Source: Prorocentrum cordatum
Lineage: Eukaryota > Sar > Dinophyceae > Prorocentrales > Prorocentraceae
NCBI GenBank assembly: GCA_963575745.1
Contig: CAUYUJ010015732.1
Location: 146,001-210,000, forward strand
DNA: 64,000 nucleotides
Direction: 5' to 3'
Both the position numbers and the translations under genes were made by a program. The notes under the pieces are model-generated. The model worked only from the letters and a program-made list of their open reading frames with translations, was not told where the DNA came from and ran no database searches. This document shows positions 5,151 to 61,008 of this stretch, in pieces (positions within the stretch are counted from its first letter, which is position 1; every line of letters begins with the position of its first letter).

Positions 5151-5289
5151 TGTTGGCCCCCGATCGGGGCGCTGCCTGCGCGGCGCGGCTGGTGCGCCAC
5201 GGGCAGTGCGCGCGCGCGCGCCGCGGGCGGTCCGCGCCTGCGCCCGCGTCTCGGAAGAAGCCAACCCTGGGGTCGCCAGGTTCTAGAAT

Positions 5290-5730
5290 CTAGAACCCAT
5301 GCAAAGACCAGATTAAAACTAGATCTGTATATACATTCTAGATCCGGCCTCATAAAGTAGATCCATCCATGAATATTACACCCGACTATGAAATACATAC
5401 ACTGAATACGAGCGCTCCTGACAATCACCATAAAAAACAGCGCCAGACCTCCCTCCATCCTTCCCTCCCCGCTCCCCCCCCTCCCCAGATTAGCACGAGC
5501 ATTTCGGATCGGCCATCCATGTGATGTTCCCCTTCTCTCTCTCTCCCTCTCTCTCTCTCTCTGTTTCTCTCTCTCTCTCTCTATCGAAAGCATACCCGTA
5601 ATTCATATAAAAAACATACGCGTGGGTGATTATCTAAAACTTCCCGCCTCATTATTCCTCCGCCCTCCCCCTCTCTTCTCTCCCTCTCCTCCCTCGCCAT
5701 CCCTCCCCGCGAGCACCGACACCTGACCCT
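5290..5730. other. Non-coding; contains a CT-rich microsatellite
   Basis: AT-richer sequence followed by a pyrimidine tract at 5530-5585 with runs of TCTCTC, then further CT-rich sequence to about 5710. No gene seen. Confidence 0.6.
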
Positions 5731-5732
5731 CC

Positions 5733-6010
5733 ACTACGACGCACCACTACCACATAACACGATTCAGGTTACCGCACAACGCACCACGGCCAAGCGCCAC
5801 CACCACGCACCACCGCGCAAATCGGCCACGCACCACGGCCACGCACCACCGCCACGACGCGCCTGCGCCACGCACCACGACCACGCACCTCCGCGCAACA
5901 CCCCGCGCGCCATCGCGCGCGCACCATACTGAACGCACCGCGCGCCACGACCGCGCGCCACGAAAGGCAACCGCGCGCCACGCAACACGAACACGCGCCA
6001 CGCACGGTCG
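5733..6010. repeat. Minisatellite of CACGCACCAC-type units
   Basis: About 280 bp of short units of the form CACGCACCACGGC or CGCGCGCCACGA, giving a strong A/C versus G/T strand bias. Open in two minus-strand frames because of the repeat. Confidence 0.75.
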
Positions 6011-6424
6011 TAGTCGTTGTAGTCGCAGTCGTCGATGTCGGGGTGGTTGCCGCCTTGCCCGGGGGAGGGGGCGCGGCGGGGTACGAAATAAGCCATGGGC
6101 GGGGTGGTATGGGCGGGCAAGGGGGCGGGTGCGCAGGGGCGCTGAGGGGACGGGCGGAAGAGGAAGGAGCGGGGGGAACATTAGCGAAAAGCAGGGGCTA
6201 GAAGGGCGGATGGGAACGCACGGACTGATGGGGACAGGGATGGAGGGAAGGAGGGGCAGCAGCGAAATGCAAAGGACGAGCAGTGGGAGGAGGGGAGGGA
6301 TGATGATATATCGCTCGCTTGCTGCGCCACAGCTGTTCTGGCTTCGAGGATGTGGCCCGACCGCACATTCATTCCAAGGGAGCCTTGGAAGACCCCGATC
6401 GGCTGCTCACTCTCGAGGGGCGGG

Positions 6425-9400
6425 ATGGCGTCTGATGCGCCAGTGCAAGTTATCGAGTCGCCCGACTGGCCCCCGCCGACGAGCCCCAGCCCGACGGACA
6501 CAGCCGTCACAGTGCCAGCTACCCCGCCCCAGTGGCGCGAGTCGCAGGTGCCAGCTTCGCAGCCCCCTCCAGAGGCGATTGAGTCGCAGGTGCCAGCGTC
6601 GCAGCCCCCAGAGGCGATTGAGTCGCAGGTGCCAGCTTCGCAGCCCCCTCCGACTCCAGAGGTGATTGAGTCGCAGGTGCCAGCTTCGCAGCCCCCACCA
6701 GCGATGGAGTCGCAGGCGCAGCAGCAGTGGGGTCACGACGCCCAGCCGGCTGCGTGGCATGGGACAGGCGCGCCTGCCACCCCAGCGGGGGCAGCCACGC
6801 CAGCGACGCCGCATGCGAGTGGCGGGCCTGGCGCACTGGGTAACCTAAATTTGGGGATGATGGGGATGGGGGAAGGGACTGGGAGTGGAGGGGGAAAGGG
6901 AGGAGCAGGAGTAAGGGGGTGGCGCGATGATAGCGGGGTGGGAGATTGGACGAGGATGTCGATGAGCGAGCGGAGAAGGAGGACGAAGGGGGGCCGCGGA
7001 GGATGAGTAGGAGGAGTGGGTGCCAGGGAGTGGGAGGAGGAAGGATGGGCGAGCGGGGGGAAACTGAGAGGAGACGGAGCGGGAGGATGATAGGGGGAAC
7101 ATGAGTTTTCGGGTGATGCGTTTATCTTCGCACACTAGTGTAACTCATCATTGATCGGCACGTCCCCCCGCCGTCGCCCAGGTGCGCAGCAGTCCCCCGA
7201 CATGGATCCCGACGCGGAGCTGGATGCGCAGTCCCAGAGAATGCTGTCGGAGTTCGACACCCCCGAGAAGATCTCAACCATGATGAAAGACAAGTTCAAG
7301 CCCTTGACAGAAGGACGCCCGATGCCGCCACTGAGTAGAGAGGGATGGGACGGGGGAAGGGCGCGGACGGAGGGGGTGGGAGACTTGTTGATAAGGGAGG
7401 CGTGAACTGAATGGGGCGAGGGGAGGGTCGGGGACGGGGGAGGTGCCCCAGAAGATTATTCAGGGCGGCAGCTGTTCTGCATCATGTTTTCTACCGCCTC
7501 CCTCGTTCCTCACGCCTCTCTCTTCGCCCCTCACTCGTCCCTCTCTAGCTCTCCTCCTCCCTCCCCATCGCCCTCCTTCCCCTCGCACTCCTCCTGGCCC
7601 ATCCTTCCCATGCTTCCCCTCCGCCCCCTCCGCGTCTCAACGGCCCCCGACGCCGACGAAACGCTCTCGGCGAGGCGCGGCTGTTGGAGACCGCTTCAAG
7701 ATGAGGTTACTCCGAATGCCTGGTGGAAACATCCGAAACTTCAACACTCCCGCCACGTCCACAGTCTCGTCGACGTCCATTGCCGTCGTCGTGTGAGTAG
7801 CCGTTTTTTGGCTCCAGATTGCATCTGGTGTTTTACAGATCTACGCCCCGTGGATCGTGCGGCGAGGCTCGTCGATGGCACACGCTGGCCCGCCCGATGA
7901 CGCCGCCGACGACGATTCGGCGGCCCCCCAGGCTAAGAAGAAGGGGAAGGCTCGGGCAGGTTCGGCGTGGCACTGCGACATGGACAGGCTGAAAGACGAG
8001 ATGCTAGCGGCCATTCCAAGCGACGCATCTGGCGCGAAGCTGCTCGCGTATCGGGAGACGTTTGCAGGGCAGAGAGACGAGGAAGAACTGTGCAAGAACC
8101 TTTGGCTGCGGGACGTGCCGAGAGGCGTGCCCCAATCAAATATGAAGGCCGCGCTGCTTCACGTGGCGACAGAGCGAGAGTCCATCTGGAAATTAGCAGA
8201 CGATAAGGAGGGGTGGTCCACGCGCCAGGCCTTTCGGATCAGAGCCATGGTCAGAGATATCAGTCAGGCCGTGCTGAAAGCCACAACGAGACCAGGCTCG
8301 TGCCCGCCATGGGTCAAACTCTTCATCACCGAGGACGACGACGCCGCCGCGGACGACGGCGGCATGCCCGGGCAGGACAGTGATGACGCAGACGACGCCG
8401 ACGAGGTTCCAGAGGCCGCGGCAGCCTCAGAGCCGATGGCAACAGCATCCGCTGGCGGTGGAGACACGCCCCTTGCCATCAACCCCGATGGCAGCAGCGA
8501 CGGTGCCCCTCTCTACAAGTACGAGTTCTTCTGGGAAACGATGGCCCGAGGGAGGTTTAGCATTGGGGCCCGCTCTCGCGGCGAAGATCACTGGAACTCA
8601 CTGTGGATCACTGGGTGCAGTGACTCACGGTGAGTTCCAGTGATCTTCGCCGCCACGAGCGTGCCCTAATGCTGTAACCGCACAGGCAGCGCATCGCAGT
8701 TTGGTGATCGGCCCCAACAAGATGAAGCCCCCCGAGCTGGCGTTGCCGTTCGAGGTGAATGAGTCCGACGACGATTCGAAGCTTGTCATCGCGCGCTGGG
8801 AAGATGGCGACTATTGGGAGATGAACTTGTTAACGGTTGGCAAGCTGAGGAGTCACCGCGCGCTCGAGTTCAAGAAAAATCCAGGTGGTGACCCGCATTG
8901 GACAGGGAATAAGGACAACGTAGACTGGAAGCTCGTGTACAGGACAGATCGCAGCCTGCTGCTGAGCATTCAGAGCTGGGGCCCCGAGGACACCGACTGG
9001 GTGCAGAGGCTGCAGCTAGTGATCGGCCATATGACCGACGACGAGAAGGCCAAGGCCATCGATGGGCTCAAACATATCGCAGTCAGCATGATGGAGGGCT
9101 CCTTGACGAAGGAGGACGCTGACATCAAGAAGTTGGAGTACGCAGTGAAGCCGAAGAGGATTCCACTGAAGCGCCGCCCAGCAGCGGGCGGGGGGGGCGC
9201 TGTGATGAAGCGCCCAGCGGCAGCGACCAGCCCAGAGCAGGCGAGTGCAGCTCAATCGGTCGAGGAGGCGCTCGGCGAGCTTCTCGGCAAGGACATCGGG
9301 GGCGGCGCGGACACCGTCGCCAACGAGAAGAGCGACGGCAGTGGCGGTCATGCACATGCTGAAGCTGACGACGATGACGCACCCTTAGTAGTCAAGAAGA

Positions 9401-9690
9401 GGCCAGCAGCGAAGTCACTTTCGGCGCCAGTTACGGTACGCAAGCGCATTGCTGCCGCTCCAGCTTCGGAGAAGCCAGCGGCGAAGGCGCTGGCCAGTCC
9501 AGGTACCGCGGCGCCCGCGGATGGCAAGGGCATTGAGCACGTTGGCATCCTGGACCCCACGCAGGCGCCGCCCGCCGCGGCCACGCCAGAGTCTGTAGAG
9601 CCAGCGCCTGCAGCGTTCCAGCCTGCGCCGCCCAAGCCAGCGCCGTCAATAGATTGGTGCATGCCGCCGCCTGGCGCAGATTTCTGGTAG
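6425..9690 (+). CDS. Gene A: hypothetical nuclear-type protein with KRPAA motifs, at least four exons
   Basis: Proposed exons are 6425-6839, 7182-about 7334, possibly one within 7630-7792, 7839-8554 and 8700-9690 (stop). Two junctions are phase-consistent GT-AG introns: 6840-7181 (342 nt, joining ..GPGALG to AQQSPDMD..) and 8555-8699 (145 nt, joining ..WETMARG to SLVIGPNK..). The N terminus is Pro-rich, with four copies of a 14-residue repeat ending ESQVPASQPPP. The middle part (7839-8554) has a KKKGKA basic patch, a charged helical region and an acidic stretch (EDDDAAADD). The last exon has a W-rich segment (ARWEDGDYWEMNLL), then basic PAA motifs (LKRRPAA, MKRPAAA, KKRPAAK) and a Pro/Ala-rich tail ending GADFW. 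KRPAA resembles a nuclear-localisation core. I do not recognise a function. It lies upstream of genes B-D on the same strand. The ATG at 6425 was chosen because the repeat-bearing frame starts there; trans-splicing would make an upstream leader invisible. Confidence 0.6.
6555..6705 (+). repeat. In-frame coding minisatellite in gene A
   Basis: Four tandem units of about 36-45 bp encode ESQVPASQPPPEAI-type repeats. Unit length varies by whole codons (extra PPT or missing P), so the frame is kept. This argues that the exon is or was translated. Confidence 0.7.
6840..7181 (+). other. Intron of gene A, purine-rich 5' half
   Basis: GT at 6840 and AG at 7180-7181 join phase-1 exon ends. The first 270 nt are almost pure G/A on the coding strand, and the last 60 nt are pyrimidine-rich. 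The next intron also starts with a purine block and then has a pyrimidine block. Confidence 0.6.
8552..8682. repeat. Introner-like inverted repeat filling an intron of gene A
   Basis: The two arms (about 8552-8602 and 8630-8681) are inverted copies over about 50 bp. The inner 22 bp (GCGAAGATCACTGGAACTCA and neighbours) are perfect, and the outer part has small indels (GGTTTAGCATT.GGGC against GGTTACAGCATTAGGGC). The left arm begins at the proposed GT donor (8555), and the right arm ends about 18 nt before the proposed AG (8699). The centre holds CACTG at 8589, 8599 and 8609 and CAGTG at 8618 and 8638, all in 10-bp phase. Confidence 0.75.
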
Positions 9691-10259
9691 TTCTCTCGCT
9701 GGCGCAGTTTGGCGCCGACTTGCGTTCGAGCAATAACACTGTCGAGCCCGAGTGGTGTTGCCCGGCTCGTCGCAGTCGCAACCACAATCATCGCATCGTC
9801 AGCTACATCGTCCAACATCTCATCACTTCTGATGTTATTTATTTCTCGACGTATCACCCCTTCCCCGTGTGTCGACCAAGTGTTGTGCGTGTGCTCTCAT
9901 CCACTGTCCGTCTGCATGCATGCTTCACACTTCGTGTCTCCCCCATCTCTATCGCATCCCTCTTCCTCTCGCTCGCAAGCCTCTGAACAACAAGGCTCGA
10001 CGCTACTTACTGCGCCTCCTCCTCCTCCTCCTCATCCTCCTCCTGCTAACCCCATCCTCCTCATCCTCCTCCGCCTCCTCCTCCTCCTCCTATGCACCCC
10101 CTCTCATCATGCCTTGTATCATCCGCCGTCCACCGTCCTCCCATCACGGTCGGGTCCAGTGCCGTCACATCTTGCGCCCTCGTCCTAACACCAATCCTGG
10201 AGATTGCTATCATGTTGGACGTGTTGCACCCCTTCTGCGACTCATCGATAATCAATGGT
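9691..10259. other. Intergenic; CCT/TCC tract
   Basis: Follows the gene A stop. A pyrimidine tract of TCC triplets runs from about 10016 to 10095. No exon is supported before the CACTG repeat at 10260. Confidence 0.5.
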
Positions 10260-10290
10260 CACAGTGACGCACAGTGAGTTACAGTGAGTC
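10260..10290. repeat. CACTG-family half element (three CAGTG in 10-bp phase)
   Basis: CAGTG occurs at 10262, 10272 and 10282, exactly 10 bp apart (CACAGTGACG, CACAGTGAGT, TACAGTGAGT). The same phasing is found at 8589-8642, 17469-17512 and 21439-21482, but here only one side of the palindrome is present. Confidence 0.65.
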
Positions 10291-10384
10291 TTGCTACCCC
10301 CCCCCCCGCTCGACGCCTGCGTCGATGTCGGTGAGTCGGCACCTGCCCATTACCGCCGCCGCTCCTCTCGCGCCGCGCCCGCAG

Positions 10385-11497
10385 GAGATGCCCCCGCTCC
10401 AGATGAAGGGGGTCTCAGCCCGAAGGAGAAGGAGGAAGAGGACTTCTGGGATGCCGCCAAGCAGAACAACTACATCTTCGCAGCTCGCGGTGGAGCTGGA
10501 AACCCGGCGGCGGGGAGGTTCGACAGGTGGGTGCGGCACAAGGATCGGGTGCAGCAGAAGCAGCACTATGACTCCTTGGGCCCCAAGGCAAAAGAGAAGT
10601 TCCGCGCTGACTGGCTCCTGAAGGAGCACAACAAGTATTGGGAATACAATCGCCCCAGACCACCATGGCCACAAATCTGATCTCAGTCTCTCGCTCCCCA
10701 CGCCCCGCTCATCCTCCTCCTTCTACCCCTCATCCTGCTCATAGTCCTTCTCATCTTCCTCACCCCCTGCCAGCATTTTGCCTCCCCCATCCTTCAGCTT
10801 GACGTCCTGGCCCCGATCCCGCATCCCCCCCATCCAAACCACGCCTCATCCTCTGTTGACTTCCCCCATGGACCTCTACTCGCATCTGCCTACCTTCAAC
10901 TTCCGAGGTGGATCAAGACGAAGGAGATGTCCCAGACCCATCGGATCAACCGCTACACGGACGCCCGCTATATGAAAGCCTGGCGGCAAATTGTCCATGA
11001 ATTCCAGTATCCAAGTTACTCCTTGAATGCGTCCTGTCTCGTTCCTCCTTCCCTGGTTCCAACCGCCGCCCGCTGGCCCGCCCTCCGTTTCCCCCCGACC
11101 CTGCCCTCCGCCCGCCCTCCACGGGGTGTCCCCCCACCCCGCCTTCCGCCCTCCACCCTGCCCTCCACCCTCCTCTCCCGCCCCCTCCCCCCCTGCCTGG
11201 CCCCGCCCTGTCCTTGGTCCGTCTGCCCTCCGCCCGCCTCTCAGGGAAACATGCCCAGACGCTCGCGCCGTCCGCCGCCCGCGGCGGAGTGGTTTACACG
11301 GTGGGGGGGATCGCGACTGAGGAGGGCGGGCCCACAGGGCCTCCGCAACGCGCTCAACTACGCGTTGAGGCGCCAGCGGGGGGCCCATAACGTCGGGCCG
11401 CGTCCGACGGGGGGGGTGGGGGGCCGAGAGCGAGGGGGGAGGGGAGGGAACAAACGAGAGGGGGAGGGATCGAGAGAGAGAGGGAGAGAGAGAGAGA

Positions 11498-11584
<87 letters not shown>

Positions 11585-13499
11585 GGAGAAAGAGAGAGAC
11601 AGATGTGAGGTGAACGATAGATAGAGGCACGTACAAATAATGAAAGAGAACGGGCGAGAGAGATAGCGAGGGATATGGAGAGATATATGCATACGAGTAT
11701 ACGCATATGCATAGTTGTAGCTTGAGAAATAGAGGTGTATGTAGATACAGAGGTCGGTGGATAAGTATACACTTAGAATGTATATATACATATAGAGATG
11801 CACACATGTTCATCATACATGTATCGAGACATATACATATAATGGCACACGCTGCTATGAACACATAGGTGTATGCAGTTGTTGTTATGTGTGACCATAT
11901 GTACATATACATATACATATATAGAGAGATACATATAGAGAGAGCGGGGGGCGGGGGCGAGATCGGGCGCGTGCCCGGCCCCGCCGAAGCACTGCCCCCA
12001 GCTGGCCTGGCATGTCACGTCGCTGATAAGTTGGAGCCTCGGGGCGGGTAGCCGCGACGGCGACTGAGGCGGCTAGGCGCGGCAACGGCGATGGCGGCGC
12101 GACGGCGGCGGGTCTGAGACATTTCGTTAAGGGAAAGACTGGCACGAGGGTGATGCGGGTGCGGGAGGGGGGGTGGATGACGGCAATGGGGTCAGGGGGA
12201 GCGGAGAGGAAACGACGAAGGTGGCGGGCGGGAGCGCGGGGAGCGCGAGGTCGGAGAGGGTTACACAAGGAAGTGATGGGCGGTGTATGTGCGGTGAGTG
12301 AGGCGATGAGCGGAGGAATGGAGGTGTCTGGGTACTCTCTCTTAGCCCAGGTGCCATACCATGGGGCGTCCATGGGCGAAATGGTGTACGTGGACTCGAG
12401 ATCTCAAATACCTCTACGTCACGGAGGGCCTGAGTGAGTCCTTCGAGACGGCGTGGACGCAGAAGATGACGTGGTATTCGGACTCCGAGAATGAGAACCA
12501 CGATAGCATAGTCAACCGCCTCACTGCCGTCGTGCAGAGCGCCGCCCGCCCGATGCCTGAGGTCGTCCCATGTGCGCGAGCAGTTGGTGGGAACGCGGCC
12601 CAGGTCTGCCACCAACCAGTATAAGCGTCACATGATAGGTAGGCATAATATAGCATAAGGTAGGTGAATGGGAGGCTCAATGGAGGCGGAATGACGTAAT
12701 ATGAGTGATGGGGGAGTGTTGGGGTGGAAGCGGCCGCTCCCAGGTCTCGTCAGCCGCGGCAGGCGCTGGCGCTGGCGCGGCAGGCGCTGCCGCTCAGGCC
12801 GTGGGGGGCATGCCGATCGAGCCCATCGTTCGGCCATCGTGCATGTCCGCGCCAGCGGCTGCCGCGGCGCCCGCTCCCGCGGCAGCAGCCGCTCCCGCGG
12901 CAGCAGCCGCTCCCGCGGCCGCCGCCCCCGAGGCCGCCGACGGCGGGGCGCCGACGGGCGGCCGCCGCAAGCGGGGGAAGGCATCCGCTGCCGAGCCCTC
13001 CGCGGGCGGCGAGGGAGGTGGCGGTGCTGAGACGGCGCCTCCAGGTAAGAAGACGAAGGCGGGTGGCACGCCATTGCAGAAAGTGAAGGCGGCGGTGCTG
13101 AGCTACGGCGTCCAGCGCACGGCCGCGAGTACCTTGCTCAAGGAGATCAAGGGTGCGACTGACGGGGCGGAGCCTGGCAAGGTGAGGAGCAAGTGGTATC
13201 CGTTCAACAACGAGCACGCCTACGGGGCGCTTGAGAAGGCAATCACGCAGCTGGAGGGCGTGATTTACGACAGGAACAAGCCGCACTACGCCCAGTTCAT
13301 TGCGGAGAACGTGCAAGAGCTCCGCTCCGCGGCGGCGAAGGCAAGGAAGGCCAACCTGCTCGACGAGCAGTTCGTGGAGTTCACAACGGTCATTGGCCCT
13401 CACATCGACGAGCTCACGATGCAGATGCGCCTGCTGCTCGACCAGTGCTCCCAGCGCCTCAAGACGGAGTCCTACTTCGACAGCAAGAGGGCCAGCTGA
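10385..13499 (+). CDS. Gene B: multi-exon hypothetical protein with A/P-rich linker (dinoflagellate repeat-associated family)
   Basis: Exons: 10385-about 10680 (after CCCGCAG), 10908-11006, 12351-12561 and 12744-13499 (stop). The introns 11007-12350 (phase 2) and 12562-12743 (phase 0) have GT-AG ends and keep the frame (..VHEFQ to CHTMGRPWAK.., ..ARPMPE to VSSAAAG..). The junction of the first two exons is unclear: a stop at 10678 has no good donor before it. Exon 1 is basic and aromatic (EEEDFWDAAKQNNYIFAARG, FRADWLLKEHNKYWEYN) and recalls HMG-like or gag-like DNA-binding regions. Exon 3 reads LKYLYVTEGLSESFETAW. The last exon has an Ala/Pro linker of repeated APAAAA, a KKTKAG patch and a helical C-terminal domain ending SYFDSKRAS. 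I remember similar domain orders from other dinoflagellates; function unknown. An upstream exon before 10329 is possible. Confidence 0.6.
11466..11960. repeat. GA microsatellite and AT-rich tail inside gene B intron
   Basis: About 60 GA dinucleotides at 11466-11600 are followed by degenerate GATAGAG sequence and TATGCATACGAGTATACGCA-type alternating purine-pyrimidine sequence. Similar blocks lie at 15230-15720 and 16320-16620. Confidence 0.85.
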
Positions 13500-15755
13500 G
13501 GGCGAGTACGTCGACCTCTTCGTCGCCTCGGAGGTTGCGACAGGCCTGTGCACAGGGGTGGGCGGGCTTCTGACGCGGGTGCAACCATCGCAGGACTCTG
13601 AGAGCAAACCCGGGTTTAAATGATGGGATATAGGAGGGGAGGAGTAGGATGGACGATGGAACGGACGGTGGCGGAGGGAAACTCAGGAGGGAGAGAGCGG
13701 GGCAGGCGGGCGGGAAGGGTGGAGGAGGGGTGGAATGAAGGGGATGACGCGGAATCGGATCGGGGGGGCAGGGTGGTAATGAAAACTCTGCAGTCTGTTG
13801 CGAAATCGCACTCGCAAACCAAAAATCCCACGTCCGCAAGTGAATCCACGGGCCGGTTTGGGGCCCAGGGACCGTTGAGTTTGGGCCCGTTGAGTTTGGC
13901 GTTGGATCTACTTTTACCCTGTTATTTTACAGGGATGGTCGATCTCAATGGTACCGTTGAGCGACCGGTGAGAACCGTTGAGTTTTGGTGGGCCACAAAA
14001 AGTTCTGGTCCAGCCTCGGGGAGCGTCGTAGCATGCGCTGGGCGGCTCGGTGTTTGAGCCCCCTGGTGATCTAGATCTGGATCTGGGCATCCGCGCGTGA
14101 GTGGCGCGGCCTGGGCGCCGCCGCCAGTGGCAGGCAGCTAGTTTTGTAGCTGGGGATGGCATCGGGAGAGCCTCCAAGCTGCGTGCGTCTCGGGAAGGAG
14201 GGGGAGTTACCGATCGGGGTAGTCCAGACTGGCGTGTACCAGTGGAAATAGCAGTGAGGGCGATGTCTGGGCCATGCCTGGAATGCCTGGGGATGCCTGA
14301 GACGCCTGCGGATGCCCAGGATGCCTGAGGCGGGGGAGAGGATGATGTAGTAGTGGCAGTATGGGTGCTGCCCCCTCAGAGACGCGGCGCTGCCCCCAGC
14401 ATCTCGCGTTCAGCCAGCTTCGAGCCTGGCGTAGCTAGAGCGGCACGGCGGGCACGACGGCATCTCCCTCCGTACGATTTCTGGACAACCTTGTGTCATG
14501 TGTGTACTCATGTGATCATGCTTGCGCGTATGCCATGCTGCCACGCATGCTATGAGTCGCACCACGCTCGTGCAACTGATATCGATCCGTCTCTTGGAGT
14601 TTCTGGTCCGCATTGCTGTGCACCGCCCGTGCCGCGCGCTTCTGTTTACGCACGTGTTTGAATCGTGCATGCGCTTTCGGTAGACGCTGACGCAGCGGCT
14701 GGGGCTGCTCGTCGAATGCCCAATCGATCTCTGCTCTTCTCCCGCAGACGTGAGGCCGCGAGGATGCGGACGTGGGGTGAAGTGAGGATGAGCATGTTGG
14801 CGAGGGCGATGAGTGGGAGGGCGGAATGCCGATGAGGCGCAGAGGCAGACGGTGGGCACTAGAGCTGAGATGGCGCAGGGGCGCGGGCGCGCACCTCGCA
14901 CATGCATGACTGTGTCGTGCGCGCGCTCGCTCAAGTAATGAAGTGCGTGCGGCGTGCAGTGCTGTCTACGCTTCTCCAGTGCGCGTGTCCGAACCTATCA
15001 TCCTGGCTGTTCGTGCCATTCCATCTCACCATCCCCTGTCGTAACTCATCTCACTCTCGGCGTGCCCTCGGAGCGTCGTCGGGAAAGCCTCGACGCACGA
15101 GGTAGGTGCGCTCGTAGCTGGAGTCGTAGTCTGCAGTTGCCTGCGGGCGGGGCGGCGATGGCCGCCGCGGGGGGCGCCCGCAGCTCGCTCTCTGCGCCAG
15201 TGCGGCGCAACAGCTTGCGAGATGGCATGGGGGCGGAAGCGACAGAGGACGAGCGAGCGCGAGATAGATAGCGAGTGAGCGGGATAGGTGGGGACGGAAG
15301 AGAGGTAGCGCGATAGCGAAAGCCAATTGATGGATGGACAGAAAGACGGTGCATATACGTATACATATGTACACACATTCACGGCCATGCCCGTGCACAT
15401 GTGCTACCACATTAACGCGTGCATATAACTGTTAACATGTATTCACGTAATTGTTCGATAGTGGGACTCGCCACGAACTGTAGAACCAGGTGTATAGATT
15501 GCGAGATATAGAGCGAGCGGGAGCGACATGGGCACGCGGTGATGTATAGATATATATGGAGAGATATCGATAACGAGAGAGAGAGAGATAGATATAGAGC
15601 GAGAGGGGGGAGATCGGCAGAGAGGAATGGATATCGCAAGCGATACGTATATATAGTATGTAGACGTACATAGATAGACATATAGACCGAGGCCGACGTG
15701 CCGATAGAGTCTGGCCCGAGAAGTAACGAGGGGGGTGGGGGGCGAAACTCCGCGG
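13500..15755. other. No gene recognised between genes B and C
   Basis: Contents: a purine-rich block (13620-13790), a short repeat of CCGTTGAGTTT (13875-13995), an 11-bp GGATGCCTG repeat (14275-14335) and a GA/AT-rich tract from 15230. No convincing exon. Confidence 0.5.
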
Positions 15756-15759
15756 CGAT

Positions 15760-16243
15760 GGTCGCATCCACGAAGCCCCCCCAGGGACCAACTGGACAAT
15801 GCCATCGACAACTTCCACGCTTATCTCGAGGGTGACACCGCTGTCGTGTTCGGTGGGCACGACCGACCGTGACGGCGATGCATCATCTGTGGACTCGCCC
15901 CGACCTCACTGGTGCTCCCCCCCTTCCCTCCTGGCCCGTAGGCCGTGGCCGTCCGTGGCCCGTGGTCGTGATCAGGGGTCGTCGTGGCCGTGATCAGCGG
16001 TCGTCGAGGTCCATGTTCCACCGTCGTGATCTATGGCGGCGCATCGTCGCGGGGAGCGGCCCCCGCTTGCTGAGTTCGTTCGAGGGGCCCGAAGAAGTGT
16101 CTCCAGATTGGCTGACGCTCGAGCAAATCAAGGCCCTCAACGCGGGCGCGGCGGAGGGGCTGCCTATTCCGACGCAGACAATGCAACTGAACGAGGTGGC
16201 AGAGGAATGTGCATCTGAGCACGACCGTGTCCAGGAGAACTAG
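15760..16243 (+). CDS. Candidate exons upstream of gene C (unknown protein)
   Basis: Two pieces look coding. About 15778-15862 reads DQLDNAIDNFHAYLEGD then TAVVFGGHDRP. About 16060-16242 reads SSFEGPEEVSPDWLTLEQ, IKALNAGAAEGLPIPTQTMQ and LNEVAEECASEHDRVQEN, then a stop. Both have mixed, non-repetitive composition unlike their surroundings. They may be exons of one gene or the first exons of gene C, but I could not join them in phase with confidence. No domain recognised. Confidence 0.4.
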
Positions 16244-16319
16244 AATGCCTGGAAGCAACCACGGCAAGGCCGCGCGCGCTCACGTGGTAGGCGACTAGGG
16301 GCCCTCGCTCTCTGAGAGA

Positions 16320-16398
16320 GAGAGGGGTATACACACATATATATATATATATATATAAATAGAGAGAGAGAGAGAGAGAGGGAGGGAGGAGGGAGAGC

Positions 16399-16444
<46 letters not shown>

Positions 16445-16620
16445 ACGAGATATATAGAGAAGTAACGAGAGGGCGTGAGAGGGAGACACGCGGGGAGGCA
16501 CGGAAAGGGGGGATAGAAAGATAACGAAGGAGAGAGACTTGGGGGGATACGGAAAGAGGGGTGCGACAGCACTAAGGAGCGACAGAAGGATATATAGCGG
16601 GAGATGTATATTAATGATGT
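16320..16620. repeat. AT and GA microsatellite cluster
   Basis: An (AT) run at 16336-16357 and GA runs at 16363-16440 are followed by degenerate GAGAGA sequence. It lies between the candidate exons and gene C. Confidence 0.85.
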
Positions 16621-16754
16621 TTGGCTGGGCATCCTGTTTTGTCTCATAGTCTCGCTGTCGCATCCGCGATAACACGCGTGGGCCCAAGTGTGCCGCGCCG
16701 CCACTCAGCCAGCAATCATTCCTGCAATCGAACACACCTTGCGGCTGCATCTCC

Positions 16755-19526
16755 ATGAATCGCCCGCCCAAGCGTGCCCGGACGATCGACCCGACGGACT
16801 ACATACCTTCATATCATCGTGCCGAGTGGGAAGATCAGTGCAATGACATGCGAGATGCAGGCCACAAGTTGATGGTTCACTTGCAGGCCGTGTGGGACTG
16901 GCACGGAATATCGCACACCTCCTGCCTCGAATTGCTGTCTGGCGCCGACGACGGGTGCGACGTGGAGCCCGTCGTCGGCGCTGGGCACGTCGAGCGCAGT
17001 GGCCGTGCGATGTTCGCAGGGCCTGCTCGCAACTTGCAAGATTAGTGCGGCCGACTTCTGCATTGCGTGCTACTGGGCAGGCAAGGCAGGTGTCAAGGGC
17101 GCGTCGTACAACGAGTTTGGCCTTCGCCCTGGGCTCCAAACAGGGCGGTATCAAGCGCTTCTTGATTTAAAATTCCCTGACCCAGACACATGCATTAAGA
17201 TTTCCGTGCCTACGTACACTCGTAAAACTGGAGTGCTGGAGTCGTACAAGCTACAGGTTTGCGTGGCATTCGAATCTCTTTGGGACGAGCTTCAGACTAC
17301 CCCAGGCATTATAAGTTCTATCGCAGTAGATCAGTGGCCAGCTATTTATGCGGCCAATCCAGTTGTGCGGCGCGCCCTGGACAACGGCGCGTCGCTGCCG
17401 TTGCCACTCGGTCTGTTAAACAGCCTGCGGCAATCCGCCGTGTCTATCACTTGAGCGATGCCAGAACTCACTGCGACTCACTGGTACTCACTGCCCCCAG
17501 TGAGTACCAGTGACTGTCGGTGTGTCCCCTTAACAACCACATCTGGTGTGCATCCCCGTGAGCTGCTTGTTTGTATGTGGTTTGGTTTTGTAACTAGCTG
17601 AATCAGAGAGGGCGTTCTCTCGTGTACGTTGCGGACCGAGCAGGGCCCGCGCGTGTATATCTTACAGCCTGGGCGACCACATGGTCAGCGGATACGCAGA
17701 TGGCGTGCGGTACACATCGATCCTCGATAGTGGCACAGACAGCCTGGTTGGGTTTTGGCTAATCAACATGGTATCGATGAAACGTCATTTGATAGCAGTC
17801 GCACGTGTAAACCAGATGTGCAGGTGCGGGTGTAAGGGGTGGTGCAGTGTACATACAATTCTACAATATGTCAAATGGTTGATCGTCGCCATTCGCAACG
17901 GTCGGAGGCCCGCCCAAATGTTCGACGGCTCGGATCCCGATACGTTTCTGGAGACCATGCGCAGGACGAGGGGGGTCGACCTTGGTTTTACGGGGGTCGT
18001 GTGTTGGCTGAAAGGCGATTGGAGTGATATCAATAAAACTCACGGCCTTCCAAACGTCACCAGCGTCCACTCGCCGTGCCCTTTCTGTAGGTGTACTAAG
18101 TATGATATGCACGCATGCTATAAACATATTGCCATCGACGACCTTGTGTGGGAGCCAGTGCGCCCTGGCGAATATGAGCGTGACTGTCGCGCGCGAGAGA
18201 TAAAGGTGCACGTGGCCTCAGACGCTGTCAGGGATGCTATCGGCAGTGCTTTAGTCTATAAGAAGGGGAAGCTTGGCCACGGCAGGACAGTCTCTCGGGA
18301 CGTGGTGGTGGGAGGGGTGCGGTTATTGAAAGACGACGTGCTGACTCCCAGCTACGAGCTGATGAACATCCACACCCTCAACACCAAACCACCTCCATTC
18401 ACCATCACATTTTGGAGAACGATCCGTGACATCAATGGCACACGCACTGGTCTGGTTGTACACAGGAGCCCGTTGTTTTGCGATGAAACTGGCGTTGAAC
18501 CTGTTACTGCCGTTCAGGTTGACGTGCTTCATTCCATATGTTATGGCCCCGTTCAGAGGCTGGCGTCGGCAATACTTTGGCGCATCATAGAAACAAATCC
18601 GTGGGGTGCGACAGGAGGCAGACTTACGAAACTGGAGGTATGCGTTCGTCATTTGAAGACTGAGATGGGGACTTGGTTCGAGACAGCCAAGGTTCCGTAC
18701 AACGACCGCGTGCACGATCTCACAGTCAGTATGCTCGGCGGCGTGCCCTCGTCAGATGCGTCCACATACGAAGGCGGTACAATGCGGTTCAAGGCTCACG
18801 AGACTTTAATCATGATGAAGTTTGCGCTGTCTAGGCTCCGAAAAACACCGCGCGTCAGAAACCATCAGGAGTTGTTGAGATCAGGCGAGGCGATGGAAGA
18901 GTTTCTTGACACGTTCAAGGGCATGGGGATCAAAGTCCCCGAGGACAAGATCCAGCGTTTGTTTGATTTAATGAAACAACATTTGGTGCTGGCCGAAGAC
19001 GCTGGCATCCACTACGTTCCAAAACATCATTTCTGCGCCCACTTGGCCGAGAGGACCTGATTGAAACAAACGTCTTTAGGAGTTTGCGTTTTGGGTGCGG
19101 GGGAGGGGCGGCGCAAAGGGGGAGGCGGCCTTTGCACGGCGGCCCTCTTATATTAGCTCTGCGCACGTTACTGCGCCCCCTTTGCACTGCCGCCACCAAA
19201 CCTAGAGCGCTGCATGTCAAGATTGCCTGGCCTCCTTGGTGTTTTTTCTCTGCAGGGGCGCTCGTCGCGCGCGCTGGATTCGGATCGAAATGACGGCGCT
19301 CAGAACCGAAACCTGGTCCGTTCCTGCATGCACCAGGATCAGATGGGCAGGGAATCCGAAATTCTACGCTTGTTACGTGGACGAGGGGCTGAACATGTTG
19401 CTCAGGAGCACGGCTGAACGCTCGCATCGGATCAAGTTCGAATATCGGATCTTCAAGCTCTTCCTCCTCGTTTCGAAGCTCGGGCTCAATCGATACGTCT
19501 ACGTGCCATGCCCCATATCTATGTAA
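16755..19526 (+). CDS. Gene C: transposase-like protein (dinoflagellate family, CACTA/KDZ-like guess), four exons
   Basis: Exons: 16755-about 16961, 17020-17414, 17668-about 19057, and about 19256-19526 (TAA). The intron 17415-17667 is the best supported: GT-AG, phase 2, joining ..LPLPLG-L to LGDHMVSGYADG. It also removes an in-frame stop. The first exon starts MNRPPKRAR. Exon 2 has KISAADFCIACYWAGKAGVK and LRPGLQTGRYQ. Exon 3 has a Cys cluster (CRCGCKGWC), a GDW segment (LKGDWSDINKTHGLP) followed by CPFC, an HSICYGPVQRL helix and, near its end, HHFCAHLAERT. Exon 4 has YACYVDEGLNMLLRSTAERS. The order (Cys cluster, GDW...CPFC, a His-containing helix, C-terminal LxxHL-like part) recalls CACTA-type Tnp2 or KDZ transposases. 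I also remember near-identical families in other dinoflagellates; neither was searched. The catalytic acids are not assigned. No large truncation is seen. Confidence 0.65.
16942..16981. repeat. 14-bp inverted repeat at the first intron of gene C
   Basis: GCGCCGACGACGGG (16942-16955) and its exact reverse complement (16968-16981) flank a 12-nt centre. A phase-consistent GT-AG intron would run 16962-17019, so the left arm would be exonic. A non-GT donor at 16947 (GA) would put most of the repeat inside the intron. Confidence 0.6.
17415..17667 (+). other. Gene C intron 2, carrying a CACTG palindrome
   Basis: GT at 17415 and AG at 17666-17667 preserve phase 2 and skip the stop at 17452. The palindrome at 17469-17515 sits near its 5' end. 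Confidence 0.65.
17469..17515. repeat. CACTG palindrome with apparent ACT target duplication
   Basis: CACTGGTACTCACTG (17479-17493), a CCCC loop and the perfect inverse CAGTGAGTACCAGTG (17498-17512). ACT stands directly before (17476-17478) and directly after (17513-17515). A further CACTG at 17469 keeps the 10-bp phase. Confidence 0.8.
19107..19194. repeat. Imperfect inverted repeat in the last intron of gene C
   Basis: GGCGGCGCAAAGGGGG (19107-19122) pairs with the reverse complement of 19176-19194 (GGCGGCAGTGCAAAGGGGG), with a 3-nt insertion in one arm. The intron ends at TTTTTTCTCTGCAG (19242-19255); its donor is not clear and may be non-canonical. Confidence 0.55.
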
Positions 19527-19539
19527 CGCCTCTGTGTTC

Positions 19540-20785
19540 ATGGCGCCGTGGACTGGCGACCCGTGCTACCGTCAGCGTTGCATCAACAGAGTGCCTAGCT
19601 GGATTACCCGGGAGGCACGATCTGTTGCGGAGCAGTGTGGCTACACCGCAGACCAGGTGAACACGCCCTGTCTGGTGGACATGGCTAACTTGCTTCCAAT
19701 GCTCGATGCCGTGCGACATGGTTGGATGTCTTGCAGTGAGCCGTTCCCTCGCGTGCTCGATTTGGTTTTGGTTTTCGCAGGGGACTCGCAGGCGGCAGTA
19801 AAAGCGAATGAGAAGGGCATGATGTGTGGCACCATTGACAAACTTCACGGCGATGATCAGGACATCACGTCCATCGTGGGAATGCTGTACGCAGTTTTCC
19901 TCATTGTGTCACTGAAAGTAGACGCGCTCGCATGGTTCTCGCCAGAATGTTCCACGTGGCTCACTTTCCTTTCAAGGGGAACGTACAAACGTTGCAGCTG
20001 CGGGAACAACATCTTGGGGGACCTGAACCTGGCCAAATGCACCACAGCCAACTCAGCATCTGCGGCCTGTGCGTTTCTGGTGATGCTCACCCATTTCCGC
20101 CACGCCTTCTACGGGCTTGAGAATCCGCTCAACTCGTTGCTGTTCCAGGCCGCGGCGTGCGCAACAGACCATAAGACACTGTAAGGGAGGACGGAGGCTG
20201 GAGGAGAGTGGAGGGACGAGGAGGCGGAGGGAGATAGGGGGTGGGCGGATGAGAGCTGGGAATGAGGAGGGCGATGCAACGATGGACGAATTCGAGGATG
20301 GATGCCTGGAGGGCGGATCAGGCAGGCAGCTTGGCAACTGAAAACGACATTACGAGGGATGGCGGCGTCCGAAAACCACGAGTATGAGATGCAGGAAGGA
20401 TGATGGACGGGTGACGGGAGGAGGTGTTAATATGACTGGAATGGGCGATGCGCCCGCCCCCCCCCCGTGTTCCTGTCCCAAGGCCGAGTGGGTGTCCGAC
20501 GCCATCCGCGTCTCCATGGGGCACCGCTTCGTTACGAGCCTTGGCCAGTTCGGCGCCCCGACGCAGAAAACCCTCGAGCTGTATTCAAACGTGCAACAGT
20601 CGATCTTTTCGAGCCTTCTGTGTAGGAAGGGCACTAGGAAGCGCAAGTCCGATGGCACTGAGCTTGCGCCTGTAAAGGGAAATCACGTTGACGGCAACAA
20701 GGCCGCGCTGTCTGCGTCGGCGGCCTATCCTGCCGAATTTTGCTATGCGATTGTGGAGCTCGCTAGCGCACTGTTGGACGATTAG
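19540..20785 (+). CDS. Gene D: CSTW...ENP domain protein, dinoflagellate family, possibly methyltransferase-like
   Basis: The ATG at 19540 lies 13 nt after the gene C stop. Exon 1 runs to about 20180, where ACACT|GTAAGG is a good donor. Exon 2 runs from about 20483 to the stop at 20785; the exact acceptor phase is unresolved. A 45-nt GTGAGC...TTTTCGCAG stretch (19736-19780) could be a further tiny intron, but it keeps the frame if retained. Exon 1 reads KLHGDDQDITS, DALAWFSPECSTWLTFLSRG, GDLNLAKCTTANSASAACAF and FYGLENPLNSLLFQ. Exon 2 reads VTSLGQFGAPTQKTLELYSN and ASAAYPAEFCYA. I remember this pattern as a common dinoflagellate family of unknown role. The spacing of PxCS-W and ENP is reminiscent of motif IV (PC) and motif VI (EN) of cytosine-5 DNA methyltransferases. 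That link is my inference, and the SAM-binding FxGxG motif is not seen. Confidence 0.55.
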
Positions 20786-20819
20786 ACGGTGGCGGGATGT
20801 ATTGATCCATGACGATGAC

Positions 20820-20860
20820 GGCGAGGAGGAGGAGGAGGAGGAGGAGGAGGAGGGTGAGGC
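20820..20860. repeat. Short GAG triplet tract
   Basis: About 12 GAG/AGG triplets just after the gene D stop, probably 3' flank. Confidence 0.7.
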
Positions 20861-21240
20861 ATGCTTGCAAACACATCGGAGATAGCGAGAGGCACGGTGA
20901 CACGTGCACAGCTGAACGCCCCGAGTTTTCCCCCACAACTCAGGCGACCCAGGGATCGAACTCTCGTTCGCTGAACTATTTGAAACATAAAAATGCATCG
21001 CGTTACCGATCATAGGACGGGCGGGGGCACCATTCAATGTCGGCTATTCTGCTGTGCACGTGTCGTCCATGCGTGTGCGATCGCAAATGTTGCTAGACGA
21101 TGCGGCGGCACTGGCGATATACCGCTGGCCGTGCCGCTGGGCAAGCGCGCATCTGGCGTTCTGCTGGTGCACGCTGCGACGTGGTGCACGCTGCTGAGAC
21201 GTGTGTAAACATGTTCGAGCGGCTCGTCGACTGACATAGT

Positions 21241-21295
21241 CTTTTCTCTCTCTCTCTCTCTCTATCTATCTCTCTCCCTCTCTCTCTCTCTCACT
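21241..21295. repeat. TC microsatellite
   Basis: Runs of TCTCTC with ATC interruptions, about 55 bp. Confidence 0.85.
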
Positions 21296-21432
21296 GCCGT
21301 TGCCCCCCTCCTCCTGCTCCCGCGCTGCCCCGCCCGTTTGCGCTCCCTCTTGCCCGGCGGCGGCGCGTTCGCGGCGAAGGGGCGCCCGCTGATCGCACGC
21401 AGTAGGTTCGAACGCCGTCGACCAGCGGCCTC

Positions 21433-21488
21433 GGGACTCACTGGGAGTCACTGGCACCAGTGAGTCCCAGTGAGTCCCAGTGAGTTCG
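21433..21488. repeat. CACTG palindrome downstream of gene D
   Basis: GGGACTCACTGGGAGTCACTGG-type left arm (21433-21454; one mismatch), a CA loop, and an inverse right arm at 21457-21478, followed by one more CAGTGAGTT. CACTG or CAGTG starts at 21439, 21449, 21458, 21468 and 21478: 10-bp phase on each side. Confidence 0.8.
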
Positions 21489-21539
21489 GACCCCTGCGAG
21501 CGTTCCACGCGTTGCCCCTTCGCGCCTGACCGGGCATCC

Positions 21540-22265
21540 CTCACATTGCCACCCTCCCCCCGCCTCTTCCCCCCCCCCCTGCGCTATTGCCATCCACCCC
21601 CCCTTGCAATCCACCATGCTCCCCCATCTGTCCCATGTCCTCCCGCTTCTTCCCCCCCCTCCCCGCCCGCCTCTTCCTCCTTCCACTCCCCCATCCCGCC
21701 TCCCGTCTCCGCACTCTCCCACATCTTCCTCCCTCTCCCCCCGCCCCTGCTTTATATCACTCCCCACCCGCCTCCGCTCCCCCGCCGCGCCGTCCCTCTC
21801 ATGCCGTGCCCTCCCCGATCGACCCCTCCCTCGCGCCTCGCTCTTCTCTGTCCGCTGCCCCGCTTGCCCGGGCGGCGAGGGGGCAGGGCCTCCGTCGGGC
21901 CGTAGACGTCCATCGCGCCGTGGGCGTCGGGAACGGCGTCGTTGGGGCGGCCGTCGTCGCCGTCGTCCCTCCCCCCTTCTCCACCTCCGTATTCCTCTTC
22001 ATCATCCCTTTTCCTCCTCCATCCCTTTCCCCCGTCCCCACCTCCTCCCCCCCCCATGCCCCTACCTTTCGCCCGTCCTTCCTCCCTCCGCCCTCTCGCC
22101 CACCTCTTCCCCATCCTTCCCTCCTCCCTCTCGACTCTCGCTCCCCTCCCCTCGCCTCCCTCCTCCTCCTCGCCTCCCTCCTTCATCCCACTCAACTCCT
22201 CCTCCTCGCTTCCCCTCCCCCCTCCTCCTCCCTCCTCTCGCCTCCCTCCTCCTAGTCGCCTCCCT
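21540..22265. other. Long pyrimidine-rich tract, no gene
   Basis: More than 700 bp that is nearly all C and T on the plus strand, with CCTCCTCC and CTTCCC units. Open frames (Pro/Ser-rich forward, Gly/Glu/Arg-rich reverse) are composition artefacts. It directly precedes the tandem relict leader. Confidence 0.75.
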
Positions 22266-22267
22266 CC

Positions 22268-22304
22268 TCCGTAGCAATTTTGGCTCAATCCATTTTGGCT
22301 CAAG
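22268..22304 (+). other. Tandem relict spliced leader (DinoSL)
   Basis: The first copy (22268-22288) reads TCCGTAGCAATTTTGGCTCA plus A, one change from the leader (CCATTTT to CAATTTT). It is followed at 22290-22304 by the perfect last 15 nt of the leader, CCATTTTGGCTCAAG. A nested full-plus-truncated order is expected when trans-spliced mRNA is reverse-transcribed, reinserted and trans-spliced again at the AG of the old leader. Confidence 0.85.
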
Positions 22305-23030
22305 TTCAACCGCTCGGCCCTGGTGGTTGAGCTTGGTCGCGTCCGAAAGGCTTGGCTCGACGCCTATAGTGTTCGATAACTTGTCTGGTAAAATGCAGCA
22401 GAACTACCGCGAGCGACGAACGATCGCGATTCAGATGCAACAACGCATCACGATTCTAGATCTACGTAATCACCACCATCATCATTCTAGATCCGCACAC
22501 GCAATGTAGATCCACGATACCAGGATCTAGATTCAAGATCTGGGCGACCCCAGGGAAGGGGGTCGTGCTCGGGCTCTCCTCGGGCTGCCCCCTGGAGCGG
22601 CGCGGCTGCTGGCGGCCCGGGGTCGGGCCTCTCCTCGCTCTGCCGGGCGTTGCTGGCCGGTATTTCGATTGGCAATCCACGCGTGGTTGGCCCGGCCAAC
22701 GCCGTGGAGCCCGCTGGCGTCTGGGCGGCCGGCGTCGCTTGGATCTCCGTCGCCTCGGAGTCAGAGGCGGCCCCGATGTCCGCCCGTCTCGGCGTCGGTT
22801 CCCGCTGCCGCGCCTGCCGCGGCCAGCCGCGGAGGGAGGGGCGGCGGCGCTGGCTTGGCGGGGGCCCCTGCGGCGGCGCAGGAGGGGGCCCCGGGGCCGC
22901 CGCCCCTCGACGGGGCCACGGCCCGCGCCGCCGGGAACAGGCGCCTCGGGAGTGACGTCGGGCCCCGCCTCCACCGATGGCCGCGGTGCCGCCTCCAGCT
23001 GCGACAGCGACGGCGGGAGGGGCCTCGTGG
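22305..23030. other. Sequence downstream of the relict leader; no gene recognised
   Basis: The frame through the leader stays open to 22509 (..FDNLSGKMQQNYRERRT.., then a His run) but matches nothing I know. From 22540 the DNA is GC-rich and could belong to the minus-strand gene that follows. Confidence 0.4.
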
Positions 23031-27754: not shown

Positions 27755-29300
27755 CGGAGGCGGAGGAGAAGGTGGAGGAGGAGGAGGAGGAGGAGGTGGA
27801 GGAGAAGGAGGAGAAGGATGAGGACAAAGAGGAGGAACAGGGGGCAACTTGGGAGCCTCTGGGGACACTCTTGCAGCCTCCTGGGAGCTTCCTGGGAGCC
27901 TCTTGGAGGCATCTTGGGGGCCCTCTTGAAGGCCTCTTGGGAGCCTTCGGGGGCTTCTCGGGAACCTCTTTGGCCATCTTGGTGGGCTCCCAGCCCGTTT
28001 GACGCCGTCGGGAACCGTCTTGGGGGCCACTCTGGGCTGACTTGGGGCCCTCTTGGGGTGCTCCAGGGCCGTTTTGGAGGCCATCTTGGGCGTCTTGGAG
28101 GCCTCTTGGGCCGTCTTGGGGCGCTTTTGGGCCCGTCTTGGAGGCCTCTTGGGCTGCTCTGGGGCCATCCTGGAGGCCTCTTGGGCGATCTTGGGGTGAT
28201 CTTTGGGGGCTCTTGGGCCGTCTCGGGCCGTCGGAAGGCCGAACATAAGCAATTGCCAACATCCTTCAAAAACCTTGGGATATTCAATGGTTTTAGCCTC
28301 TTCGGGCTTTCCTGGGGGCTCTCTTGGAGGCCTCGTGGGCCGCCTTGGGCCATCTTAGGGCCATCTTGTGCCGTCTTGGTGGGCTCCTGGCCCGTCTGAC
28401 GCCGTCGGAAGCCATCTTGGGGGCCTCTCTGGGCCGACTTGGTGCCCTCTTGGAATGCTCTAGGGCCGTCTGGGGAACCGTCTTGGGCGTCGGAGGCATC
28501 TTGGGCCGTCGTTGGGCCCTCTTGGGCCCGTCTTGGGGGCCTCTTGGGGCGTTCTGTGGCCATTTGGGAGGCCTCTTGGGCGATCTTTGGGGGCTCTTGG
28601 GCCGTCTCGGGCCGTCGGAAGGCCGACAAGAAGCAACTGCCAAAATCATTCGAAAGTCCGTAAGGAAAATCACAGATTTTGGCATCTTCGGGCCTCTCTG
28701 GGGGCTCTCTTGGAGGCCTCTTAGGCCATCTTAGAGCCAACTTGGGCTGTCTTGGTGGGCTCCTGGCCCGTCTGACGCCGTCGGAAGCCGTCTTGGGGGC
28801 CTCTCTGGGCCGACTTAGGGCCTTCTTGGGGTGCTCCAGGGCACTCTTGGAGGCTTCCTTGGGCGTCTTAGAGGCCTTTTGGGCTGTCTTTGGGCCCTCT
28901 TGGGGCCGTCTTGGCGGCCTCTTGGGCAGTCCTGAGGCCATCTTGGAGGCTTCTTGGGCGCTCTGGGGGCGATCTTGGGGGCCTCTTGGGCCGTCTTGGG
29001 TCGTCGGAAGTCCAACAAAGAGCAAATACGATCATCGTTCAAAAACCTAGGGAAAACCAATGATTTCAACATCTTCGGGCCCGCCTGGAGGACCTCTCGG
29101 AGGCCTCTTGGGCCGTCTTGGAGGCCTCTTGGACACCTCTTGGGCAGTTTTGGGCCGTATTGGAGGCTTCTTGGGCGTATCTGGAAGTATTTTGCACCCT
29201 CTCCTCAGGCCGTCTTGGATGCCATCTTGGCCATCTTGGAGGCATCTTGGAGGACAGCTTGGGCCATCTTGGAGCCGTCTGGAGGGGAACGAACAATCCT
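27755..29300. repeat. 12-bp-based minisatellite with a 370-395-bp higher-order unit
   Basis: After a GAG triplet tract (27760-27840), units such as GGCCTCTTGGGC and GGCCGTCTTGGA repeat to about 29290. A non-repetitive spacer (GGCCGTCGGAAGGCCGA... then CATCTTCGGG) recurs at 28237, 28611 and 29005, giving a higher-order period of 374 and 394 bp. The period is a multiple of three, so all frames are largely open (up to 449 codons on the minus strand); I do not regard these as genes. Confidence 0.8.
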
Positions 29301-29435
29301 TTGCAGCCACCTTTTGTATACTTTTCCGGGTGGCCGGCGGGACGGGTAGAAAGCCTCAGGGGGAGTTCTACAAGAACCAACACCGAAAGGATTCAGCACG
29401 CTGGGCACCCCTGTGACAAGCACAGGGGGCGGCGG

Positions 29436-29600
29436 ATCGAAGACGCCTACGGCGAATCACCGCCGCCCCCTGCCTTTTCGGAAGCGCCTATGTGGTTGAA
29501 TGTTGAGGCCAGACCTGCTCAGCTATCGGACCATGTGTTCCCCGAATCGGCTTGGAAAGCCTTCGGGGAACACGTGGGCGTCTTGAAGGTCATCTTGGCC
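29436..29600 (+). repeat. Right flanking direct repeat of the 12-bp minisatellite
   Basis: Second copy of the 27592-27750 segment. It is followed by two more minisatellite-like units and then by CAAACAAAGCTC repeats. Confidence 0.75.
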
Positions 29601-29629
29601 GTCTGGAGGCCATGACTGAAGCAAAGTGC

Positions 29630-29830
29630 CAACAAAGCTCCAACAAATCCCAAACAAAGCTGGATCAAGCTCCACCAAAGCTCCAACGGCGCTCAAACCA
29701 AGCGCAAACAAAGCTTACACAAAGCTCAACCACCTCTCAAGCAAACATTAATCGACGCTTAAACAAAGTTCCAACAAAGCTCGAACATACCTCAAACAAA
29801 GCTCAAACAAAGCTCAAACATCGTTTGGCC
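29630..29830. repeat. 12-bp repeat of CAAACAAAGCTC type
   Basis: About 16 degenerate units such as CAACAAAGCTC, CAAACAAAGCTT and CAAACAAAGCTC. Confidence 0.75.
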
Positions 29831-42250: not shown

Positions 42251-42339
42251 CCCGATACCCACAACAGCAGTGTTCATAATTGCATATGGTTGGGTCCTTC
42301 GCCAGGCTGATTGTTGACTGGTTTTCCATATCATTATGT

Positions 42340-60873: not shown

Positions 60874-61008
60874 GGGCCTTCTCCTGAATTTCCCAACCTG
60901 GCTCGAGGCTCCTGGTGGCCAGGCACCAAGGGCGGGCCGCGGTCGCGCTCCACCTGCCTGCGGCGGCCGATCTCCTCGGCACCCGCTTCCGCTCCTTCCG
61001 CCTCCTCC

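Follow-up and report, generated by a model that had tools for sequence, protein, structure and literature searches.

Transposases of the RAG1/Transib/CACTA (CMCT) type are DDE enzymes that are recognized, in the excerpted text of PMC12730594, by C(2)C and H(3-4)H motifs between the second D and the last E. Motifs at the ends of CACTA elements that are repeated in direct and inverted order and can form stem-loops are described as domains for TNPA-like proteins; excision requires these proteins, and TNPA, once bound, can obstruct RNA polymerase (excerpts of PMC2613891). The introners reported from the dinoflagellates Amoebophrya and Prorocentrum cordatum are introns that bear inverted repeats and are predicted to form hairpins (excerpts of PMC7789003 and PMC10666404). 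Here, in a 64,000-nucleotide stretch of P. cordatum DNA (positions 146,001 to 210,000 of contig CAUYUJ010015732.1; hereafter, the window), we describe four palindromic arrays of the hexamer TCACTG and show that all lie within a 17,291-bp DNA transposon encoding such a transposase, gene C. A family of CMCT-type transposons of 17–19 kb carries the palindromes as conserved cis-elements in its interior; what is observed is where they lie and in how many copies, that hexamer and phase are conserved in diverged relatives (most clearly at site 3) and that the arms pair. We propose, at a probability of about 0.45, that these internal arrays dock a putative DNA-binding protein and serve as an operator or roadblock.

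The arrays resemble those of the TNPA type (En/Spm, Tgmt*) in placing a short motif in direct and inverted order, capable of forming a stem-loop (weakest at site 2), within a large CMC-type element; the Tgmt* motif itself has 10-bp and 7-bp parts (same excerpts of PMC2613891). They differ in lying internally—in introns, between genes and behind the transposase—rather than subterminally, in being phased at 10 bp with 5–6 units per dyad, and in that the subterminal regions here bear a different motif, TAGATC. Inverted repeats and predicted hairpins are shared with the introners, whereas the copies listed here lie in transposons, the array sits at the hairpin tip and not at the intron ends, and the site-3 intron occurs without the array in more distant relatives. 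Among the best matches in the open-licence literature, we found no description of such arrays, and we know of little work on transposon control in the very large genomes of dinoflagellates. The sites amount to a well-delimited cis-element that is conserved and varies naturally, for which one intron site is found empty and the sequence of gains can be inferred; what reads them and their effect are thus open to direct test.

Phased dyads inside one DNA transposon

An earlier note on this DNA had reported CACTG and CAGTG units 10 bp apart at four loci and nowhere else in the window. This holds: CACTG-N5-CACTG and CAGTG-N5-CAGTG each occur five times in the 64 kb, at these four loci only, against a mean of 0.07 such pairs (maximum, 1) across 100 Markov-shuffled windows. 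The repeat unit is longer than the pentamer first noted, being the hexamer TCACTG in the left half of each site and CAGTGA in the right half. The centre of the dyad, earlier put at 2–4 nucleotides (nt) in three of the sites, is 4 nt at all four (GGTG, GTCA, CCCC and GCAC), so that the 10-bp phase runs on across the dyad.

8588–8643, no strand: site 1, 3+3 TCACTG/CAGTGA units, one being CGGTGA
10242–10287, no strand: site 2, a degenerate left half and three exact CAGTGA units, in the interval separating genes A and B
17468–17513, no strand: site 3, 3+2 units, with an additional right-hand unit that has diverged
21438–21483, no strand: site 4, 2+3 units, 3′ of the last conserved coding block

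Site 2 had been described as one-sided; its left half is present in register as TCATCG-N4-TCAATG, with 3 mismatches over 24 motif positions, and has identical letters in the copy on contig C925. The element contains 26 exact hexamers, 18 of them inside the four arrays, and the remaining 8 compare with 8.4 expected by chance.

The boundaries of the transposon are given by terminal inverted repeats (TIRs) and target site duplications:

5265–22555, + strand: DNA transposon of 17,291 bp, with TIR matches at both ends, containing all four palindromes
5263–5264, no strand: left target site duplication, AA
5265–5297, + strand: left TIR, CCCTGGGGTCGCC..., with 16 ends genome-wide and 0 for the control
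5265–5765, no strand: left subterminal region, with three TAGATC/GATCTA motifs and no TCACTG
22056–22555, no strand: right subterminal region, with five TAGATC/GATCTA motifs and no TCACTG
22523–22555, − strand: right TIR, by TIR match
22556–22557, no strand: right target site duplication, AA

The C925 copy aligns with window positions 5264–22565 at 98.7% and the alignment stops there. A 2-bp target duplication was observed in four of seven two-ended elements (AA, AT, AG and AA), the flanks of the other three being non-matching. Three copies (C7006, C15891 and C16602) have a common left flank and so look less like independent insertions than like haplotypes or segments that were duplicated. As the four sites lie within one TIR-bounded element, all belong to a single large DNA transposon, and we are highly confident that the palindromes are conserved parts of it. 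Just within its right end (about 22266–22306) lies a doubled, altered copy of what we take to be the dinoflagellate spliced leader; a further copy, presumably of the same leader and apparently intact, lies at 60850–60875 (about 60853).

The genes and predicted introns of the element are as follows:

7875–9690, + strand: gene A, exons about 7875–8543 and 8686–9690, start position tentative
8544–8685, + strand: predicted gene A intron with site 1, GC-AG/G, phase 0, from a three-family alignment
10402–13957, + strand: gene B, from coding blocks conserved between the window and C2291
10402–10635, 10897–10977, 12349–12534, 13056–13478 and 13862–13957, + strand: gene B blocks, grouped by us as one gene
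16728–20782, + strand: gene C, CMCT/RAG1-like DDE transposase
16728–16889, 17020–17426, 17668 or 17689–19057 and 19320–19508, + strand: gene C blocks
19540–20157 and 20480–20782, + strand: possible gene C blocks, membership tentative
16890–17019, + strand: predicted hairpin intron of gene C without TCACTG, folding z-score −6.2
17427–17688, + strand: predicted gene C intron with site 3, GC-AG, phase 2, acceptor ending at 17667 or 17688

The earlier link between the palindromes and a transposase-like gene stands, as both belong to the same element and gene C is a CMCT transposase. Its residues comprise the D of DGVRY, the D of KGDW, CPFC, KHHxxxH and the E of DE.LN; the H pair is present in 8 of the 9 rows of the alignment, the second H being missing from P0012, and the predicted fold is RAG1/Transib-like, with RAG1 and Transib its nearest neighbours. 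The same order of D, D, C(2)C, H(3-4)H and E is found in EnSpm/CACTA and in the other CMCT groups (Mirage, Chapaev, Transib, Plavaka and ESTA, as well as RAG1). Pfam returned nothing usable for gene C or for the transposase of the second lineage described below, Rfam returned nothing, and a sequence search of solved structures gave nothing noteworthy.

The element departs from EnSpm/CACTA transposons in its termini, which are CCCTGGGG and not CAC...GTG, in the length of its target duplication (2 bp where seen, not 3 bp) and in lacking a usable Pfam match; subterminal repeats are present, as TAGATC/GATCTA. Of these motifs, 8 of 14 fall in the outer 500 bp of the window element, and they are clustered at the ends of the C2291 element too. 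The suggestion that CACTG represents the CACTA terminal signature, or a terminal transposase-binding site, was rejected on the same termini and on the absence of TCACTG and CAGTGA from the outermost 500 bp on both sides.

Gene A is conserved in C2291, C19499 and C20486; a search of the protein database with its protein, built with the intron at 8555–8699 and not 8544–8685, found no homologue. Its intron at site 1 has a GC donor in the window and GT donors in the relatives, and the usable acceptor of the site-3 intron is predicted to vary between families. In keeping with the proposed association of the palindromes with introns, two of the four, sites 1 and 3, fall inside predicted introns; site 2 is intergenic and site 4 lies behind gene C.

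Copy number and conservation of the arrays

Across 4,128,499,153 bases in 21,875 contigs, the dyad CACTGNNNNTCACTGNNNNCAGTGANNNNCAGTG occurs with up to two mismatches in at least 70 places, against 0 for the reversed control, so that copy number lies far above the control. The looser pattern that the earlier note had put forward also exceeds its control (358/401 versus 62/54) but catches other CACTG-rich repeats as well. A one-sided triple is not enriched genome-wide (66 against 105 in the control); with the dyad far above its control and the triple not, the dyad arrangement is the special feature. Fifty of the 70 places were listed, the other 20 being places with two mismatches. Thirty-six of the 50 belong to the window family and its relatives, each of their contigs having either a TIR match or a gene C match, 13 were assigned to a second lineage (by sequence comparison for C182, C3452, C14593, C13625 and C5081, and by the matching array for the others) and one lies in C10924. 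The second lineage has a transposase related to gene C (hhalign probability 95.3, E = 2.3e-8) and carries a like array about 550 bp upstream of the nearest long open reading frame.

Beside the array of C182, in this second lineage, are two extra short palindromes of the TCGCTG-GAAA/GAAC-CAGTGA kind (L088, 8951–9130), and in C3452 one such palindrome reads GCTCACTG-GAAA-CAGTGAGC. A separate repeat with a one-sided CACTGGTCCTCACTGGCCCTCACTG is present in C9014, C1544, C3217, C13335 and others; the single copy read, that of C9014, has no dyad. Exact four-unit arrays were absent from the viral and prokaryote contig collections (viral_contigs and genome_contigs), in which no relative of gene C was confirmed either; three-unit patterns in viral_contigs comprised 28 direct and 2 dyad stretches, each a single match.

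Related elements retain the arrays in homologous places. The C2291 element (58019–76793), with a gene C 65% identical to that of the window, keeps intact copies of sites 1 and 3, whereas its site 4 is degenerate (4 mismatches in 22). In the B family (C8779, C14936, C18660, C18796, C19499 and C20486; gene C 61–64% identical), site 3 is found in 6/6, with its position within the gene confirmed in five (C8779, C14936, C18660, C19499 and C20486); site 3 is therefore present in all seven relatives with 61–65% transposase identity. Site 1 occupies the same place in C2291, C19499 and C20486 (3/3 checked), and site 2 was seen solely in the window family. At site 3, 30 of 30 hexamer columns are identical across the three families, compared with 6 of 16 spacer columns (p = 2e-6), and the intron sequences flanking the array match between the window and C2291 at 23/38 and 64/144 aligned positions.

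Possible modes of action

Hexamers fixed at one-turn spacing around a dyad, both intronic and intergenic and at homologous places, point to a DNA-binding protein. Identical hexamers amid drifting spacers at site 3 are the pattern expected if sequence is read at the hexamer, and the occurrence of sites both inside and outside predicted introns is as expected of a DNA element. Each site would be a docking array for a dimerising protein that occupies TCACTG at each helical turn, always from the same side of the double helix and in mirror orientation across the dyad. This protein would most likely be encoded by the transposon itself, the candidates being genes A and B; the second choice would be a host protein. 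As the arrays lie in introns or between genes and not at the ends, they would act on expression—as operator, promoter element or transcription roadblock limiting transposase output—and not as transposase cutting sites, for which the TIRs and the subterminal TAGATC repeats are likelier candidates. The idea of transposase-binding arrays at the transposon ends accordingly fails on position, although binding as such may occur.

Several observations weigh against a docking array. No Pfam family matched the reading frames of genes A and B, and the structure model of gene A is unusable (pLDDT, the predicted local distance difference test, 45). At site 1, identical columns number 28 of 36 in the hexamers against 11 of 20 in the spacers, a difference with p = 0.07. 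Arm complementarity extends past the hexamers at some sites, which plain DNA binding does not need, and all six B-family copies of site 4 retain a hairpin but have partly lost the register, which favours structure over phase there.

The main rival, which we consider doubtful, is that the palindromes act as RNA, with transcript hairpins steering splicing, RNA processing or the production of small RNAs from transposon transcripts. Sites 1, 3 and 4 fold better than shuffled sequences (z −13.5, computed on the stretch 8555–8699, −3.0 and −7.5, respectively), whereas three other interruptions of genes B and C do not (2.5, −0.5 and 0.1). The site-1 hairpin almost fills the predicted intron in three families:

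8554–8684, + strand: hairpin at site 1, 56 pairs

When the relatives are scored against the window structure, pairing is retained in 81 of 113 cells (72%) at site 1, against 34–50% when the structure is slid, and in 56 of 69 (81%), against 29–45%, at site 3, with 7 and 9 cells, respectively, in which both partners have changed in a compensatory manner; the structure being taken from the window sequence, this comparison is biased in favour, and the site-3 rows C8779 and C14936 are close kin. Of 76 spacer positions, 49 can pair with the opposite position in the hairpin, compared with 39.5 when the partners are shuffled (P = 0.004, the kinship of the rows being ignored), and this pairing, together with the B-family hairpin at site 4, makes the strongest case for an RNA. 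Mismatches over nine hairpins comprise 19 G–T and 11 A–C, near-duplicate rows being left out (C20486 at site 1, C14936 at site 3 and a duplicate of the C14936 row at site 4), and their direction does not separate RNA from DNA.

A reader of double-stranded RNA, however, would not need exact hexamer identity within a stem, and the helical turn of A-form RNA is not 10 bp. Site 2 retains three hexamers yet barely folds (z −1.7 sense, −2.9 antisense), and the spacers of the second lineage barely pair (2 of 8). The hexamer identity at site 3 and the poor folding of site 2 are the best points against action as RNA.

It is unlikely, in our view, that the likeness of the arms stems simply from arm-to-arm gene conversion or template switching, the structure itself being functionless. 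The hairpins are self-complementary even though their sequences differ between families, and a strong hairpin without TCACTG lies within gene C (16890–17019), both of which such a process could leave behind; conversion alone would not, however, fix the site-3 hexamers while spacers and flanks drift, or account for arrays in matching positions among relatives whose transposases are 61–65% identical. The hairpin intron without TCACTG also has a counterpart (L058, 835–1030; C2291 equivalent, z −5.4), and introns that fold into hairpins may be more general in the transposon.

Intron and palindrome at site 3, and other repeats

The last rival draws on the history of the site-3 intron. Relatives of gene C exon 3 were sought by scoring 93 of 4620 first-look candidates, which gave 94 matches, and 11 loci were fetched. 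At 42–46% identity, coding runs uninterrupted through the site-3 position in 4/4 relatives checked, an empty site for that intron, and database homologues such as P0001 to P0004 likewise continue without a gap across it. At 49–51% identity, all seven relatives have an interruption of 211–324 nt without the palindrome (best match, 9–11 mismatches in 22), and those looked at with 61% identity or more have both intron and palindrome. The intron would thus be older than the palindrome, unless the middle group has lost the latter. On this evidence, and later loss aside, the site-3 palindrome appears not to have created the site-3 intron, and the introner explanation offered for it was rejected. The case splits intron gain from palindrome gain and cautions against labelling every inverted-repeat intron an introner. 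In one relative at 49% identity (L109, on C1605), the site-3 interruption holds a different palindrome, GTTAAACCAC...GTGTTTAAC.

That the palindromes are miniature elements or introners nested in transposon genes is accordingly very improbable: two of the four sites lie in predicted introns, a site empty of the site-3 intron exists and inverted-repeat introners are reported in P. cordatum (excerpts of PMC10666404), but all seven relatives at 49–51% identity have the intron without the palindrome, the listed copies fall almost wholly in the two transposon lineages, target duplications flank the 17-kb element in four of seven copies, and none was noticed around individual palindromes in the flanks inspected, no systematic search having been made.

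More speculatively than the docking of a protein at these sites, the large CMCT transposons of this genome might possess an internal module devoted to regulation, consisting of a TCACTG dyad array in phase with the helix at intronic and intergenic positions, that arose after intron gain, spread to several sites within one element and is common to two lineages, with an element-encoded protein metering the transposase through DNA binding and the hairpin together.

Elsewhere in the window, a loop-free palindrome at 145–222 has two 39-nt arms that are 82% complementary and contains no TCACTG. About 28 copies of a unit with a 10-bp period, TGCAAAGCAA, occupy 31897–32191; arrays with periods of 11, 21 and 32 bp lie at 27968–29820 and one of 21 bp at 59816–60465, all of these periods being near whole helical turns. 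A 76-bp tandem unit with the core CGTTTCGTGGCCCATAGGGAGCTCC extends over 40861–43574, with 18 copies in 40861–42253 and more beyond.

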